DNA from: Dioscorea cayenensis subsp. rotundata
Taxonomy: Eukaryota; Streptophyta; Magnoliopsida; Dioscoreales; Dioscoreaceae
Assembly (NCBI RefSeq): GCF_009730915.1
Contig: NC_052477.1
Span: 27,236,578 to 27,300,577, forward strand
DNA: 64,000 nt
Reading direction: 5' to 3'
The notes below the pieces were generated by a model that was not told where the DNA came from, did no database searches, and saw only the letters and a list, made by a program, of their open reading frames with translations. Numbering within the stretch: position 1 is the stretch's first letter; every line of letters begins with the position of its first letter. The position numbers were made by a program, and so were the translations under genes. Positions 5,645-63,127 of this stretch are shown here, piece after piece.

Positions 5645-7579
5645 CATCATAAGTTCCAAGTTTCAATTGAAGGAAAGCATAAGATAATCTTCAGAGCACC
5701 AGCATAAGATTATACAACTTTAGTTATATTCTGCCAGTAAAAATATATATGTTGTACTCTCCTCTGCTTGATCATAAGCCTCAAGGAGCTTATTCTCTGG
5801 ATTTTTAAGTTTATTTTATATATATATATAATATGGGAATTCCAATGTTTCAATTGTCTTGCATTTAGCTCTATTATTTGGGCTTGAAATAAGAATTTTA
5901 GCCTTGAAGTCAATCATCTCTATTATAACATCACTTCTTATTTATTTATTTGTTTATTCATTTACTTTCCTTTCTATCTTTTGTGCTTTTGGAAAGTTTA
6001 TATATGCTTTTGATTGGTGTTTCATATGATTGATTTATAGATCAAAAGGTCTATGAATGAAGTGAGTGTTTTGAGTTTGAAGTTAAGGGGAAGTGTTTTC
6101 AAGGGGGCAGTGAACAAACAGGGCATGGATTCAGGTTAGACAAACTTAAAGTGTGGGCCTGGCCTGCTCTCAAATCAATGTCCAAGTTTGGTTTAAAAAT
6201 AATCATAATTAATTCAGTTGATCCTAAAAGAATTATTTTAATATAATTAAAAAAAAGTTCCTTTGATTTTTTTTTTTATAAATATTTTTTAAGTAAAAAG
6301 ATAATATCTAATGGTAACCAATTATCAGTGCTGCAATGCATGCAATGTGACACTTATTTGTTCATATCAATTGTCACATTCCTTTTCAAGATCATTTCAT
6401 CACCAAACAAATGGTGTGACTTAATGCTTTCTTTTTTCCCTTTTTAGTTTCTTTTTAGAAAATTCAGTAGTTTTTTATATTCATTTTTTATAATTGATTT
6501 ATATTAAGAAATCGGCGAAATTTGTTTTCTAGTTTAAGTTGTTGTGAAAGCGATTTGGAATAGATGTGATGTGAATATGTCCTGGATTCATATTATATGA
6601 TCTTTAGACTGAATTGGCATCCAAATTTAATTTTTGAAGTTTGCGTTAATATTTTGTAAAGTGAGCTTAATTAACACAATACCATAGCACTAAACGCGGT
6701 TGAATCTATTGATACTAACTTCATTAAAATAATATATTGTATAAAGACTTTTTATCGTCCAAAATTCAAAACATTAAATAAAATAGGATTAAAAAAATTT
6801 AATTGTAAAAGCGAGTTTATAATTCGATTCCCAACACATCTCACACAAATCAGACAATCAATTTATGATGACATCGCACCTGACTGATATATGTTTATTT
6901 TATAATATATATATATATATATATGATTTTTTTTTAGAGAAAAATCTCTTAATTTCTTAAAAACCCATCATGACATCTCTGGGTTTGACCTTAAACTTTT
7001 TGACTTTTATTTAAAATGAGCAAATTAATCCATATGCTTATTCTTGTTAACACCTCCTAATATATATGTATAGAATCTATAGATATGTATATCCTAGTAG
7101 ATAATCATGTAAAATGACTACTGATAAGTTTATTTTCCATTAAATAAAATTGTAATTACAATAAGAAAGTGATATTTAATTATCCTCTCAAATCAGGGTC
7201 GAGAGTTCTAATCACTCTTAACTCATTGGTCAAGGATTTTGATTTGTCTATATTTACCAAAAAAAAAAATTCTAAAGTTAACTTGTGAAACTCAACAAAA
7301 TATCTTTTTCTAAATAATATAACAAGCAAAATATCACTTGTAACATTTAAATCTCAACTCTATTTTGATTATTTATTTATTTATTTGTAAAATTAATTTA
7401 TTAAATTTTTTTGAGATATCTAATTACTCATATAATTTCCTAATTTTCTAATATATACACATATTTACAATATTAGAATCTTTGAGGTTTTTTTTACAAT
7501 TTTTTTATTTTATATCATGACAAATATGTGACCATTAACCAAATAAATAATAAAAGACATTACTGTAAAAGAATATACA
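5645..7579. other. Gene-free AT-rich interval
   Basis: 3' flank of the WOX gene followed by AT-rich DNA with poly-A/T and TA runs. No coding signal seen on either strand. Confidence 0.5.
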
Positions 7580-7826
7580 CTGTGACTTCACTAAAAAAAG
7601 ACAAAAAAAAAATTGTAATAAATTTAACTCAACTAATATCATATTGGAGTTTCTTTATGTTTTTTGTTTTGTCATCTCATTGCTTATATTTTTATTTGTA
7701 TGTTATATATTATGAATATTTTAATAAATCAGTGTTTTATTTATTTTATTAAAAAATCATGATTAGTAAAAATAATTAACTTGTGGATCACCACATAATT
7801 AACAAAAAATAGGATAATATTTATAG

Positions 7827-7874
<48 letters not shown>

Positions 7875-8232
7875 ATAAATAAACAAACTTTGAGTTAACA
7901 TATATATATATATATACACACCGTGACTTCACTAAAAAAAGACGGAAAAAAAATCGTAATAAATTTAGCTCAACTAACATTATATTGGAGTCTCTTTATG
8001 TTTTTTGTTTTGTTGGTTGTTTTGTCATCTCATTGCTTATATTTTTATTTGTATTTATATATTATAAATATTTTAATAAATCAGTGTTTTATTTATTTTA
8101 TTAAAAAATCATGATTAGTAAAAATAATTAACTTGAGGATCACTACATAATTAACAAAACATAGGATAATATTTATATTCCTACATATATATTTTTTTAA
8201 AAAAAAGAGGATAAATAAACAAACTTTGAATT

Positions 8233-8264
<32 letters not shown>
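7580..8264. repeat. Tandem duplication, two copies of about 340 bp
   Basis: The segment starting TGTGACTTCACTAAAAAAAG near 7581 recurs at 7922, and the copies run in parallel to about 7919 and 8264. They share the same order of landmarks (a TCATCTCATTGCTTATATTT block, a TCATGATTAGTAAAAATAATT block, and AAATAAACAAACTTTGA), differing by point changes, a small insertion and TA-repeat length. The copies contain no gene. High similarity suggests a fairly recent duplication. Confidence 0.9.
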
Positions 8265-39876: not shown

Positions 39877-40003
39877 CAGGAAATATGGTGCAGCCAAGGA
39901 TGACTTGCCGATTCTTCGGTCGGAGTAATCAGTCTTGTTCCTCAAATGGAATTATAGAGATGAGGAAGTCGGCAAGTTGTCTTTGGCTACATGTTGTTTC
40001 CTG
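39877..40003 (+). ncRNA. MIR169: MIR169 precursor hairpin
   Basis: The 21 bases at 39891-39911 (starting CAGCCAAGGATG, ending CTTGCCGA) equal the classical miR169a mature sequence. The opposite strand of the stem, 39971-39991 (starting GGCAAGTTGTCT), is the usual star sequence with G-U pairs and small mismatches. The base of the stem is closed by CAGGAAA (39877-39883) pairing with TTTCCTG (39997-40003). The loop side is about 45-60 bases. miR169 guides cleavage of NF-YA mRNAs, affecting drought, nitrogen response and flowering. Small frames crossing the hairpin are not thought to be proteins. Confidence 0.95.
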
Positions 40004-45933: not shown

Positions 45934-46106
45934 CGTTACAAATTACAACAAACATTAAAATTTTACTCAGATTTAACTAATTAATAAATTAAATTAAAAA
46001 TAAATAAATAAATAAAATAATAATTACCAAGAGGTGGAAACGCGGGGGAAGAGTGAAGAAGAAGAAGATGGAGCGGTAGTAAAAACTCTTTGGCGAGAAG
46101 ATCGGG

Positions 46107-46316
46107 ATGAAACCGTTAAAAACTTTGGTATGCTATGTTATGCTCAACCCCACAAGTCAAAGCCAATGGCGCCATCATCCTCCCCACCCACCAAACCCTA
46201 ACCCTAACCCTAACCCTAACCCTAACCCGCAACAATCCTTATCCCCCCAACTCGCTTCCTCTTTCCTTCTCTTCGTTCCGTTAGACTTCCATGGACGGAG
46301 GACCCGGGGGCGGTGA
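46107..46316 (+). other. Upstream ORF overlapping the Pur-alpha start
   Basis: If transcription starts upstream of 46107, the ATG there opens a 69-codon frame that runs past the Pur-alpha ATG at 46291 in a different frame. The telomere-type repeat is read in it as alternating Asn-Pro. Such an overlapping uORF would lower main-frame translation. It is not thought to make a useful protein. Confidence 0.4.
46196..46228 (+). repeat. Interstitial telomere-type array (CCCTAA)5.5 in the Pur-alpha leader
   Basis: Five and a half perfect CCCTAA units, preceded by AAA so that the first box reads AAACCCTAACCC. The array ends 62 bases before the Pur-alpha start codon. The unit is the six-base type rather than the seven-base CCCTAAA common in plants. 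Telo boxes in plant promoters and leaders act with TCP or site II elements in cycling cells. Confidence 0.9.
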
Positions 46317-49291
46317 CGTTGAGCTCCTCTCATGGACTTTGCAGTTCGAGCACAAACTCTTCTACTTCGATCTCAAGGAGAATCCTCGGGGACAGTACCT
46401 TAAGATCTCTGAGAAGACTTCTGCTACTCGATGTACAATCATCGTGCCTCTTGATGGTGTTGCTTGGTTTCTTAAGTTGTTTGATTATTATGCTAGTGTT
46501 GATGAGCAGGAGGTTGTTAATAAGCAGTTGAAGCTTGAGACAAAGGTCTAATCTCTGTTCTATTGTTTTCTTTTTCTTTTTCTTTTTTAATATTTTTAAT
46601 ATAAAAATTGTTTTTTTTTAATTAATGTTTAGTGTTTGATGGTGTTTTTTTTTTCTCTCTTTATTTTAGGTGTTCTACTTTGATATTGGTGAGAATAAGA
46701 GGGGTCGGTTTTTGAAGGTATGACTCTGTTAGTGTTTTTATTTTCTTTACTTTTAATTGAATTTTGAAGTTTAAGTTATACAAACGTTTTTCACTTCTTT
46801 GTTTTGGTTGGTATGTTGTAATGATGAGATGAATTTGAAGGGGAAAGTGTATTAAGCTGAAATTTAGTTAATTTCTGTTTGATGTAATTCTGTCTGTTGT
46901 GTTTTGTTTTGTTTTGTTTGTGTACCTGATCATTGGATAAAATCTCAAGTATGCATGCTGCTTGGAACAGATGAATTGGGATATCATATTAGTGTTGTAT
47001 TAGCGGAGGAATGAAATAGGGAAGTGTTAAAAGTTTATTAAAGCAATGTTTTTTTAAAAAAAGAAAGAAAATAAAAAAATAAGGAAAAGAAGAAAATTGT
47101 AGCCAATGATAGTTAGGAACCTTGGTTCTGATTAAGCTATTGAGGTATCATGGAAATGCTTGGATGACGGAAAGATGCCACAATGTATGTCTTAAGTTTT
47201 GGTCACTTTTATAGATGAAGTTGGAGACTGTTGGACATATAGTTTCTATATCTTTTCAGTCAAAACAAATAATAAAAGGATGATTTGAAAATTTTCTGAA
47301 TATGATGATTGTTCAAATTTAGAACTGTCAGTTTTGGTAAAGGTGATGGTTTTATTTTTATTAATAGAATGATGATAGAGTATCATTTAGCAAGAATGAA
47401 GACTTAAGGTTTTTCTTAGAGTATAAATTCCTTTAAAAAAAAAAAATACCCTTGCAATTTAACATGAGAGGAGCTGATTGATTTGCTAGAGAAGATACAT
47501 ACAGCCATGTGTGACAACTACTGGACATGTTTGTCTTGTAGTATTTATTATATCACCACTATTTATATGAATAGAATCCAGGGTTGATCATGGAATGTAG
47601 ACCTAAAATTCCCTATTGGGGTGCAATCTTCATAACTGGATTCCTAAGTTAACCTTTCGAAGTTCACCTTGTTGACTACTAGTTTTGAATGAAAAAATAT
47701 TAATTGTTATTGGTCATTGAGTAACCTATCCTACTTTTTGTGGTGAACCAATCACAAGTTCGTGCTTAAAATCTTTTTCTCATTGTCGTTAATTTCAAAT
47801 CTTTCCCAAAAGATGGAACAATTCATTGCAGTTGTTTGTTTCGGGAATTTAGCATGTGGAAAAGGTAGATTGTTTTTAAACTGCCTTTTATTCTTGACAT
47901 GTACTGACATGCACAATCAATATGTGAGCTTCATTTAATGTTACCCTTTGCCTGAGCTGCACTTCTTCAAATGCCAACTATTTCACATTAGCATAGCTAG
48001 ATAAGGTGCCAATTTGATTCTAACCATATCTATAACTAAAAATAACTGAAGTAGCAGGAAATTGCTCTTGTGGACACTATGTCAGATCATCTTTCTTGAT
48101 TGAATTTAATTAGAATGAGTGGTGCTTCTATTGTCCTGTCTCTTAGTTGCTAAATGATGTGATCTCTACTGTGTCCCTTTTTCTTATGGAAGGCTAGTGA
48201 AAGATGGTGGTTTCATTAATTTTCTTGTCTGAGAAAGCTTGTATCAAGAAAAGAACTTAGATAACATTGTGCAAGGATTTAGTTTCAAAGGCTTTTGAAA
48301 TATACTTTATTTATCAATGTGGATATTATTAGTCGAGGACTGATCAACAGAACATATGCCCATCATTTTTGGAATCACTTGCATAAATGTAAAATTATTT
48401 CAGATTGTATGCACATGTTTTTACTGCTATGCCAGTATTTAGGCCATCACCAATCTTACATACTCGTTATGTCAGTACCATTTACACAATTATGTATACT
48501 GAGTAGCGCTCTGAACTTGACGTAAGTCTTAGTGCAGCTGTAGGTCAGTTAAGTAAAATTGCTGTTTATGTAGATCTCAGAAGCGTCTATTAGCAGAAAT
48601 CGCAGCACAATAATTGTTCCAGCTGGAAGCTCTAGTGGAGAAGGATGGGTAGCGTTTAGGAATATTTTGTTAGAGATAAATGAGAAAGCCTCGCAGCTTT
48701 TCATGGCACCTGACCAGGTATGTTCTGATAGAGCATTTACTTATGAATGAATTACCTGATTATTGTCTGGAAGTGCCATATGCTAAACTGTGTCTACCTT
48801 CTTGTCATCAAACAGCAACGAATGGAACCTTCAGAACATCTTCCTGGTCTCTCAGATGATGTCGGGGCTGGATTCATAGCTGGGCATAGTACACAACTGG
48901 CCACTGGATCAGACCTCAATGTTGATCGGTTACTTGAACTGCCCTCTCAGGATGAAGTTGGAGGTTTGGGAACATCAAAAGTTATGAGGGCAGATCAGAA
49001 GAGGTTTTTCTTTGATTTAGGTAGTAATAGTAGGGGTGATTTCTTGAGGATATCTGAGGTATTGTGAAATCAATTAATCTATTGTTATGCGTACTTGGAA
49101 TGATAACAATAGCATGAACTCCATTCTTTGATTGTAACATGCAGGTCATAGGAGCCGATCGTTCATCTATCATCCTTCCATTGTCTGGGCTGAGGCAGTT
49201 CCATGAAACAATTGGCCATTTTGTGGAGATATCCCAAGACCGACTAGAACCATTGACCAGCATGAATGTGCGGAATGTGGAGCAGAGATGA
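46291..49291 (+). CDS. PURA1: Pur-alpha, purine-rich single-strand DNA/RNA-binding protein
   Basis: Five exons: 46291-46545, 46670-46717, 48574-48717, 48816-49058 and 49145-49291, all phase 0 and GT-AG; 278 residues. Three PUR repeats are seen: FEHKLFYFDLKENPRGQYLK (near residue 19), VFYFDIGENKRGRFLKISE (from about 86), and KRFFFDLGSNSRGDFLRISE (about 210-230). Each is followed by a beta-rich I(I/L)VP or ILPLSG segment. A Gly-rich N-terminus (MDGGPGGGDVE) is typical. Pur-alpha unwinds purine-rich repeats; the Arabidopsis protein has been reported to bind telo-box DNA in promoters of translation genes. Intron 2 is long (about 1.86 kb). The leader carries a telomere-type array, so self-binding is possible. 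Confidence 0.95.
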
Positions 49292-56300: not shown

Positions 56301-57721
56301 ATGTGGAGGAAATGGATAGTCCACACCAAGTCTTGCAGAAATAGGCTCCAAACGGGATGATATGTTGTTCACAGAGTCTTTCGACAATGAGTCAGGTGGA
56401 CCATACAAATCCTTTGCATGCTTCACTTCATTTTCTTGAAGAGTGCTCCTCAAATTTATTTTACCAGCTGGCTCTACTGTCAAGACATTTCCAAGAAATC
56501 TCAACCTGAAACATAATTCCCAACTTTAAAATCTTGAACGCATAAAACAAAATATTGAGAATGAGCAAAAAGCACACATACTAACACAATAATTTTAGAT
56601 AATAGTTTTCCCATGGATAAGAGTAAATGATACTTGCACTAATAGAAGCTAATTGAGAAAATGAATTGAATGTCCAAAGCACTTAGGGTCTAATAGTATT
56701 GCAAATTCATTCAATCAAGCGTAAAGCTAAAAAAACAATATAAAACATCCAAATAAGCACCTGTTCAATTGAGATTGAGCTTGACTGGCCAAACCTTCAT
56801 CCTTAAAATCCACAAACGCGCAATTACGCAACCTGCCAACAAAAAGAACATAAGATAAATTTCCATGAACAAAAAATAGAAACAACAAGCACATTTAGTT
56901 ACATCAAAATCAGGCCAGTGCTTCAAGCCTAAACACCACACAAACAACAATAATAGTAATTCTTGGTATATTAGACGTAAACCTGGCTAGTTCCGCCATC
57001 AAAAGTAAAAAACCACTTTAAAAAAAATAATTTGTTAACTGAAAATCCTATAGTAAACCCTAAAATAGATTGATCAATTCATCATACAAATTAATTCACA
57101 TAAACCCAGCGCAAACATCACAAGAAATTTCTGAACTGACATCTACCACTAGCATAAAGAAAGGAAATGCAGGAGCAAAATCTTTCCCATTCACCAAGCA
57201 ACCTAAAAACCATGCAACGATTTTAACAAGCTCTAAGACATGTCACAGTAAATCAAAACAGAAGCATGCCTACCAAATATTTGGTTCAATGCGCATCGAG
57301 AGAGTTGGAGTTCTACCATCTCAAGCACCTCCTACCGTAACAATGAGAAACCAAATCTCTAACCCAATTCATGTCCCAACAATCCATTGAAATTATTGGG
57401 AAAAAAAAAAACAACGAAAGATCTCAAATTTCTACGCCAATAAAATAGCAATCATGCCGAAGAGAAAGATGGTTACCTGCCACCAGCGCAGGGGCGAACA
57501 GAGGAAGCCCCATAATGGGAGAAGAGTCGAGAGAGCATCTCATGGGTTATCGCCTCTGGGAGATGCCGCACCAGCAGCGTCGCCACCGTCCCCTCCGCCG
57601 GGCCAGCGGCTTGCTCCTCCACACTGGTTATCGACGTTGGCATCTGCGGTGGCGGCGCTGGCGGCGGCGGATGAGGAGGAGGAGGAGCCACCGGCAGGCG
57701 GTAGGGCGGGAACATCGACAT
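53389..57721 (-). CDS. RNPC3/SNRNP65-like: U11/U12 small nuclear ribonucleoprotein 65 kDa protein (minor spliceosome)
   Basis: Eleven exons in transcript order: 57721-57477, 56832-56761, 56505-56296, 55876-55795, 55712-55539, 55439-55281, 55178-55005, 54521-54434, 54249-54191, 53788-53723 and 53472-53389; 470 residues, all in phase. The N-terminus is Pro-rich (PPYRLPVAPPPPHPPPPAPP). RRM1 is at about 47-120 (ATLLVRHLP, NCAFVDFKDE). The middle holds YVYPPPDGNILTNIVNALIA and a Pro-rich, acidic linker. RRM2 is at about 381-463 (NVLYIKNLAKDVVVDDFHFI, GQAFVTFPSVDLAHNAL), ending NPSSGKTG. RRM2 binds the 3' stem-loop of U12 snRNA, and the N-terminal part contacts U11-59K, bridging U11 and U12. Loss in Arabidopsis disturbs U12-intron splicing and development. 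Its own introns all look U2-type. Confidence 0.95.
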
Positions 57722-58038
57722 TGAGAGCTCTGAGAATTTCTAGGGTTTTCGCGGTAATGAGTTCCTATTATTCTGAGGGAAAGTCTCTTCTTCTAATTTT
57801 AAGTAATTGCTCGGATTTTTAAATATGTTTAGCAGTTTGGTTTACGGTAATGTTTTCATACGGATATTTTTTAATAATAAAAATTTATTATTATTAGTGA
57901 CGATGGTAATATTAATAATACTATTACTGGCTATATTGAATTACTAGAGTAAATAGGTGGTAATTTGAGAATTTTTTTCTAAATAAATATACCTTATGTT
58001 TATAAATTTTAAATTTTTCTTAAAAATTTATATACAAG

Positions 58039-60826: not shown

Positions 60827-61738
60827 ATTGAAATGACTGTATTTTAATTAACATCATGGTTCTTTGGTTTCCTATAAAAGAAAATACTGCATTTACTTTT
60901 GAAGTATTTGGTTTGATGTAAATTGTGAGTTAAAATAACCATGTAAAGTAAGTGGTGAGATTGGCTTCTTTTTTTCAAAAAATTTTATATTTTATAAATT
61001 TTTTAATATTTCATTTTAAATCTATTTTATTTATTTAAATTTAACATATTTTATTTATTTAAATGGATTTAAGTTAATGGATAAAGTCACTAGTCACCAA
61101 TCCATGATTACAATAACAATCTTACAATAATAAATCTCAATAATAAAGCGACGCCAATAACCATTCACCAACAAACAGTTTACCAACACGACACCAACTA
61201 CAATAATAAATCTCGATAATTTCACAGTATTAAACCATTCAAACAAAAGAACTGATAAAAAAAAATATTATTAATCAAATGAATGCAAGGATCTAGGGCT
61301 CACACTCCACCAACGACACCACCAGTGATGAGCGACCTGAGAACGCTCCCTATCACGTACTGAGCAGCCTTAACATTCTCTCTAGAAAGCTTCGCCTCCT
61401 TAGCAAGGTTTACGATCGTGTTCACCGCCGACTCCCCCATGCTCTTCCCCACGACGTCCTTAGACACCATAGAAACCCTAGAAACAAAAAAACCCCGAAT
61501 TCGCAATCCTAGATGACAGAACCCAATCAATCGCAGGAACACCGAGAGGCGATCAGGCCAAGGAGGCCATTTCGATCTCCTCATCTAGCTTGTCGATAGC
61601 GAGTGTAGACGGAGGTGGGAAGTAGAGGATGAAGAAGAGAAAGATGAGCTCTGGACCGGGTAACTTTAATCAAATTGTAATGCTGCATTTTGACTTACAG
61701 CCAAATTGACCGTAAGTCCAAATGCAGCAAAACACCCT
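60827..61738. mobile_element. Gene-fragment-carrying DNA transposon B, relative of A
   Basis: Immediately follows element A. Its left arm (60827-61040) aligns with 59369-59590 of A, including ACTTTTGAAGTATTTGGTTTG against ACTTTTCTAGTATTTGGTAC and the block GTAAGTGGTGAGATT. The right end carries an inverted repeat (61681-61698 with 61712-61729, 17 of 18 matching) and ends near GCAGCAAAACACCC. The core (about 61290-61640) is GC-richer and host-like. No transposase. Confidence 0.5.
61300..61470 (-). CDS. Small ORF in captured host-like DNA (56 residues)
   Basis: Begins MVSKDVVGKSMGESAVNTIV and continues with an Ala/Val-rich helical stretch to a Gly/Val tail (SLITGGVVGGV). The DNA just upstream on the minus strand (TTTCTAGGGTTTCT) looks like a normal plant leader, so the piece may be a copied leader plus first exon. 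The family is not recognised. Whether it is expressed is unknown. Confidence 0.3.
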   Translation of the reverse strand: MVSKDVVGKSMGESAVNTIVNLAKEAKLSRENVKAAQYVIGSVLRSLITGGVVGGV

Positions 61739-62486: not shown

Positions 62487-63127
62487 TAATTATTCATGTG
62501 TTTGTGTGTCCTTTATTGTAAGGGCTGTAATAACCATCCATATTATTTACCCTTCTAATTATTTATTATTTATTATTTAGATGTCTATCTATCTTGCAAA
62601 TATCTCTATATTGACATTCAATGCCTAGCTAAGTTTTTTGGTCAGTTGTTTACCAAGTCATATTCATTACACTATTATTAATTTGTCACATTCAAGGCAT
62701 TAATTATAGAAGCTCAAGGATCATTTAATATTCTGACATGTCAATATGTCCCACAAGCTTCTTGTGTTGTCATACAAAATATATGTGAAAGAGAAAGGAT
62801 GTCATGAATGATATATCCTTAGTGTTAATGTAGCAAGCTAAGACTTGCTATTGCAATTAGCCAAAGAGGTATTAAAGATGTACAATGGCATAGTAGTTAA
62901 AATTGAGAGTAAAGACGGTTGTTTCAAACAAGCACTCTACTTATTCACAGCCTCTTTGCACAATTTCAAGCACGGTTACAAGCCTATGTTGGTTGTAGAT
63001 AGCACACATCTGCATTTATTTATTTATTTATTTATTACTTCTAATTTTGTAGCAAGATAATGCTTGCTATTTGACATGAAATAGGACCAAATGTGCACGT
63101 GCCAACAAATGTGAAAATACATGGTTG

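Follow-up and report, generated by a model that had tools for sequence, protein, structure and literature searches.

In Dioscorea cayenensis subsp. rotundata, a perfect array of the telomere-like unit CCCTAA lies just ahead of the start codon of a Pur-alpha gene, and a second, long-diverged Pur-alpha gene of the same genome carries a like array at the corresponding position of its leader. This array is a known kind of element, the telo box, in an unusual form. We give about an even chance to the reading that it is a tandem telo-box element of the Pur-alpha leader or core promoter that predates the duplication behind the two genes and has been preserved by selection ever since. The sequence analysed here (the window) is the whole 64,000 nt stretch containing the first of these genes, and the genome searches covered an assembly of 584,211,761 bases.

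The array occupies positions 46193..46228 of the forward strand of the window and reads AAACCCTAACCCTAACCCTAACCCTAACCCTAACCC, i.e., AAA followed by five CCCTAA units and a final CCC, with the C-rich strand as the sense strand. Tandem Repeats Finder reported 46194-46228 of the window as period 6 with 5.8 copies and 100% matches; the other rows of period 5-7 with 100% matches were both shorter (TTTTCT, 3.7 copies at 46566-46587, and ATTATTT, 3.1 copies at 62558-62579), which makes this the longest perfect array of period 5-7 in the window. Direct reading of the sequence and the repeat search thus agree with the first-pass annotation, which had placed five and a half CCCTAA units just before the Pur-alpha start codon. 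Allowing up to one mismatch, CCCTAACCCTAA occurs six times in the window (four of them inside the array) where shuffles average 0.12, an excess that rules out chance letters as the origin of the array. A much longer unit, of 352 bases, is also tandemly duplicated in the window (7573-8264, 84% matches).

The array opens with the canonical plant telo box AAACCCTA (46193..46200, forward strand; definition from PMC3022908), which starts 98 nt before the ATG and hence falls in the 5' flank or 5' UTR, where telo boxes by definition lie, mostly close to the transcript start. It is also a microsatellite in the sense of perfect repeats of 1-6 nt units with at least four copies for hexamers (PMC7181556). 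Sixty-two nucleotides separate its end from the Pur-alpha ATG at 46291, and it likely lies in the mRNA leader; TATAWA is absent from the 430 nt upstream of this ATG, so the array could also be part of the core promoter. In both genes a stop codon in frame, three codons ahead of the main ATG, rules out that the array belongs to an N-terminal extension. On the G-rich template strand of the array (46193..46228, minus strand), five overlapping G3 quadruplex motifs are predicted, and the sense strand is predicted to be unfolded.

The gene that follows has five exons with GT/AG borders, all on the forward strand (46291..46545, 46670..46717, 48574..48717, 48816..49058 and, including the stop codon, 49145..49291), and encodes a protein of 278 residues. 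This protein matches Pfam PurA at 5.2e-35 over two stretches and so has the PUR repeats of the family. All seven distinct PDB sequences matched at E <=0.001 were Pur-alpha chains (named CG1507, purine-rich binding protein-alpha or Pur-alpha, and presumably of fly and human), aligning to residues 72-138 and 198-258. The window also holds a MIR169_2 microRNA precursor on the forward strand (39880-40002; 74 bits, gathering score 50).

Searching the genome with PF04845 (five candidates scored) returned four exon matches at E <=0.001, two per Pur-alpha locus, and at this threshold no further locus beyond the window gene and a gene on contig C12 (PurA E 2.8e-9 for its exon 1); no Pur-alpha relatives were found on viral contigs. 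The leader of the C12 gene, at ~18.15 Mb of that contig, contains the second array (locus L054), and the 36 nt of array shared by the two genes are identical. The two proteins are 87% identical, with a dN of 0.07 over 261 aligned codons from exons 1, 3, 4 and 5. Exon 2 was excluded from the codon alignment because the C12 copy has one extra base there, which would shift the frame; this base may be an assembly error or the mark of a damaged copy, and in the latter case it counts against a selective explanation of what the two genes share. At synonymous sites the pair is far more diverged (dS 1.05 by NG86 or 0.93 by YN00, with 53 of 94 four-fold sites differing), and the resulting low dN/dS, as estimated from these codons, speaks for long constraint. 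A dS of ~1 also rules out recent duplication as the cause of the shared array.

At this divergence, unconstrained DNA is expected to be ~43% identical under the Jukes-Cantor model. Intron 1 of the pair aligns no better than shuffled sequence (209 of 300 shuffles reach its score), and the 62 nt between the array and the start codon (46229..46290, forward strand) are weakly similar, with 45 of 300 shuffles scoring as high. The block upstream of the array (46093..46188, forward strand), by comparison, is alignable with the second gene at 66 identical columns out of 86, a score reached by none of 300 shuffles, and it contains a palindrome, ATGGCGCCAT, found in both upstream regions (at -125 and -132). 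What the data show is thus the sequence of the array, its position, its rarity at full length and its occurrence, together with ~96 nt of upstream flank, in both genes. With the array and this flank alignable across a dS of ~1 that has left intron 1 unalignable, the array is probably a maintained element.

The main competitor to this conclusion is an ordinary hexanucleotide microsatellite, i.e., a leader telo box expanded by slippage whose extra units have no function, which we consider possible but less likely than maintenance by selection. Its appeal lies in the frequency of such repeats. Three CCCTAA units give 633 overlapping matches genome-wide, against 39 for the reversed control, which we estimate to represent roughly 380 arrays, and grouping the 100 matches listed yielded 60 arrays, of which 40 were fetched with 2.5 kb on each side and oriented with the C-rich strand as sense. 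Around these 40 arrays, GC content rises from 0.29-0.32 in more distant upstream DNA to 0.39 over the adjoining 200 nt, is 0.43 and then 0.39 across the first 400 nt on the downstream side, and drops to 0.32-0.36 beyond. Nineteen of the 40 open with AAACCC. Downstream, 107 open reading frames matched 19 Pfam families of varied kinds (MATE, subtilase, mTERF, DEAD helicase, kinase and others), compared with five families in 85 upstream frames, although removing 11 array-spanning frames from the upstream set alone favours this contrast. A short CCCTAA array near a gene start is thus a common feature of this genome, and AACCCT is likewise listed as one of the leading hexanucleotide repeats in ESTs of banana (PMC4488140) and in Calamus (PMC7181556). 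By itself this would mark the array as an ordinary telo-box microsatellite, and on that account the array shared by the two Pur-alpha genes would be either a conserved single telo box expanded twice or an old array decaying slowly.

Arrays of full length are a narrower class. The exact 33-base pattern of 5.5 perfect units has 12 occurrences genome-wide, so that the array is no more unique at this length than at three units, and two of the 12 places lie in the Pur-alpha leaders, one in each gene. Six others overlap open reading frames with Pfam domains (an LRR at L030, ARM at L045, phosphoesterase at L050, the U11-48K zinc finger at L052, permease at L053 and amino acid kinase at L056), where it is translated into runs of Pro-Asn or Thr-Leu. 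The six-base unit is frame-neutral, and the presence of such long arrays inside reading frames is as expected of repeats of this kind. By eye, the array at L030 possibly lies within a signal peptide. The two reading frames at L049 and the one at L051 had no Pfam match, and no convincing reading frame was seen at L055 or L057.

The presence of both Pur-alpha genes among these 12 places counts against slippage. Were the places random, the chance of including both genes would be 1.5e-7 (assuming 30,000 genes and ignoring shared descent), and given one Pur-alpha match, a second random match has a chance of ~0.0003-0.0004. The 33-base threshold was itself taken from the array of the window, which weakens the argument, and since seven of the 40 arrays sampled are 32 nt long or more, arrays nearly as long must be several times commoner than 12; with a threshold of 32 nt, a second match is still estimated at a few per thousand. 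Slippage of the array by itself would, moreover, leave the conservation of the upstream flank to be accounted for. A control gene family gives some weight to the other side: for an array-bearing DUF7054 gene, one of the five relatives listed in the genome, a distant one (40% identity), carries a leader array of 2.8 units, so that arrays may recur within gene families, and the other four lack a telo box in the DNA fetched. Together with the choice of threshold, this recurrence counts against maintenance by selection, and a conserved telo box may have regrown its array by slippage in both genes with no selection for several units. The published AACCCT microsatellites (PMC4488140, PMC7181556, PMC10029318) resemble the array in unit, length class and perfection of the repeats, but differ from it in that here both copies of one gene pair hold the repeat across a dS of ~1. 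Hexanucleotide repeats of maize are reported to be densest in coding sequence and not in UTRs.

To place the array among other telo boxes, we consider the window as a whole. It contains six AAACCCTA boxes against a shuffle mean of 2.78, an excess that is not clear, as 7 of 100 shuffles reach six. With 12 start codons chosen by eye from open reading frames, five of the six sites (three sense, two antisense) fall in the 200 nt ahead of one of them, and the array itself provides one of the five; the count is four of six when a tentative gene at 61470, which has no Pfam match, is left out. For comparison, 280 octamers of the same composition, pooled, placed 52 of 965 sites in this zone (49 of 965 without the gene at 61470), and the published control AAACCTCA placed none of its six. 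One sense box, at 57741, stands 20 nt before the ATG of a minus-strand gene starting at 57721, which we take to encode the U11/U12 65K protein and whose first exon gives a weak RRM match (E 0.0021, 18.3 bits, under the cut-off of 20.7). An antisense box stands 198 nt ahead of the start codon of a Pfam-supported homeodomain gene (4350 and 4548), presumably of the WOX type.

Telo boxes are described as clustering in 5' UTRs and as present in 9-10% of Arabidopsis genes, and those of this plant seem to behave as reported for Arabidopsis and rice (PMC3022908). The array shares with them its motif, its sense orientation and its location less than 100 nt from the start codon, and differs from the plant telo box, as far as that account describes it, in being a perfect tandem with a six-base period, in standing before a gene that does not encode a ribosomal protein, and in its partners. 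Neither site II (TGGGCY) nor TEF1 (ARGGRYNNNNNGYA) occurs within 1000 nt ahead of the Pur-alpha gene of the window, which is a further point against the selective reading; the 309 nt upstream of the second gene contain no TGGGCY and one TEF1-like match at -304. These partner motifs have been described for ribosome-biogenesis genes and not for every telo box (Gaspin et al., PMC3022908).

The unit of the array differs from the telomere repeat of this species. The seven-base CCCTAAACCCTAAACCCTAA gives 2219 matches (one for the reversed control), and, among the 100 matches listed, a TTTAGGG cluster on contig C3 reaches position 19,059,591 of 19,059,608, which leaves 17 bases to the contig end, and is oriented as a chromosome end would be. 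At this one contig end, among the matches listed, the terminal unit is therefore seven bases long and the six-base array is not the telomere sequence of the species, which upholds the earlier remark that its unit differs from the usual seven-base one of plants. A further seven-base cluster among the matches listed, at C4:22085157-22086900, lies ~0.2 Mb from a contig end in the opposite orientation and is either an interstitial array or a misjoin.

This bears directly on whether telomeric DNA or telomerase gave rise to the array, through insertion or capping, an origin that the likeness of the motif invites and for which a telomerase model of the telo box has been proposed (PMC3022908). The terminal repeat at the end of contig C3 is, however, TTTAGGG and not TTAGGG, which argues against telomere insertion, and the array stands at a homologous place with a shared flank in the second Pur-alpha gene; taking these together we regard any such origin as exceedingly improbable. 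The capped insertion of telomeric repeats put forward in the first-pass annotation is not supported on either count. Long interstitial telomeric repeats left by chromosome rearrangement are likewise telomere-like repeats inside a chromosome, but the array is only 36 nt long and its unit differs from the terminal repeat of the genome.

Could the array act at the level of the mRNA? On such an account its C-rich, unfolded stretch and the upstream ATGs would set the translation of Pur-alpha, which we think highly unlikely. Upstream ATGs stand at similar places in the two genes (-184/-185 and -125/-132), the first opening an upstream reading frame that overlaps the main start in each, and the predicted lack of folding of the sense strand fits as well. 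The second opens a candidate short upstream reading frame of 11 codons plus stop in the window gene (46166..46201, forward strand), which has its ATG in both leaders and terminates at the first TAA that the array provides. Yet the corresponding peptide of the second gene runs to 23 codons and includes Pro-Asn repeats, so that the two are unlike in both length and sequence, and the upstream ATGs may not be transcribed at all. Feedback of Pur-alpha on its own mRNA through the array is a weak proposal. GGN motifs are the targets described for animal PURA in vitro (PMC7990775), and because the mRNA carries the C-rich strand, direct binding of Pur-alpha would be expected rather on the G-rich template DNA.

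Feedback on the DNA is a better candidate, although still an unlikely one in our estimate. Here Pur-alpha would bind the G-rich strand or the duplex of the array in its two promoters and tune their transcription by negative feedback. It is tempting to picture the protein, with or against TRB proteins, regulating its own two genes through a platform of several telo-box sites that predates their duplication, and to this fuller version we attach the same low probability. Secondary accounts credit Pur-alpha of Arabidopsis with telo-box binding and with TCP20 as a partner (PMC3229498, PMC3212954, PMC3880305, PMC9175010), and it is reported to associate with TERT (PMC6356271). In mammalian cells, according to a review, ectopic PURA makes its own promoter less active (PMC11755881). 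The two systems are alike, by analogy, in the idea of Pur-alpha controlling its own gene; the mammalian promoter differs in being that of an animal, with GC/GA-rich motifs and, in the passage concerned, no telomere motif. The occurrence of the array in both Pur-alpha genes also favours autoregulation, an idea that was open to failure on this very point and that came through the comparison at dS ~1 as plausible, judged from sequence. On the other hand, about 10% of Arabidopsis genes are reported to have a telo box, so that the motif by itself is not specific to Pur-alpha (PMC3022908), and most studies of PURA binding to promoters are described as old and unconfirmed since (PMC7990775). None of the titles and abstract openings listed, from a body of literature lacking most subscription journals, dealt with such an array at a Pur-alpha gene of a plant. 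If autoregulation holds, the loop would read a telomere motif and tie the supply of Pur-alpha to a large telo-box regulon.

Returning to the reading we prefer, a telo-box element maintained since before the duplication, the six-base period would probably stem from slippage of one AAACCCTA box, and the array would now serve as a multi-site platform. The array would act on the DNA as five AACCCTA sites in a row for proteins that bind the telomere motif, most likely TRB Myb proteins and possibly Pur-alpha itself. It may raise expression in growing cells, as has been reported for telo boxes in translation genes; a telo-box element would be expected to do so in cycling cells and in concert with partner elements. 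That several boxes in a row may matter to such proteins is consistent with the report that a four-repeat telo-box probe, with seven-base units, was bound by TRB1 and TRB3, and a single box by TRB3 only (PMC13132431), although the length of those units counts against applying the result to a six-base array.

Should the extra units prove to result from slippage only, the two leaders would show telo boxes growing into short telomere-like arrays whose unit is unlike the terminal repeat of the species. If the array is functional, it would offer a small and concrete target for asking whether plant Pur-alpha acts through telo boxes and whether a telo-box-binding factor sits within its own regulon. 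The two Pur-alpha copies, long diverged, form a natural pair for finding which parts of the leader matter.
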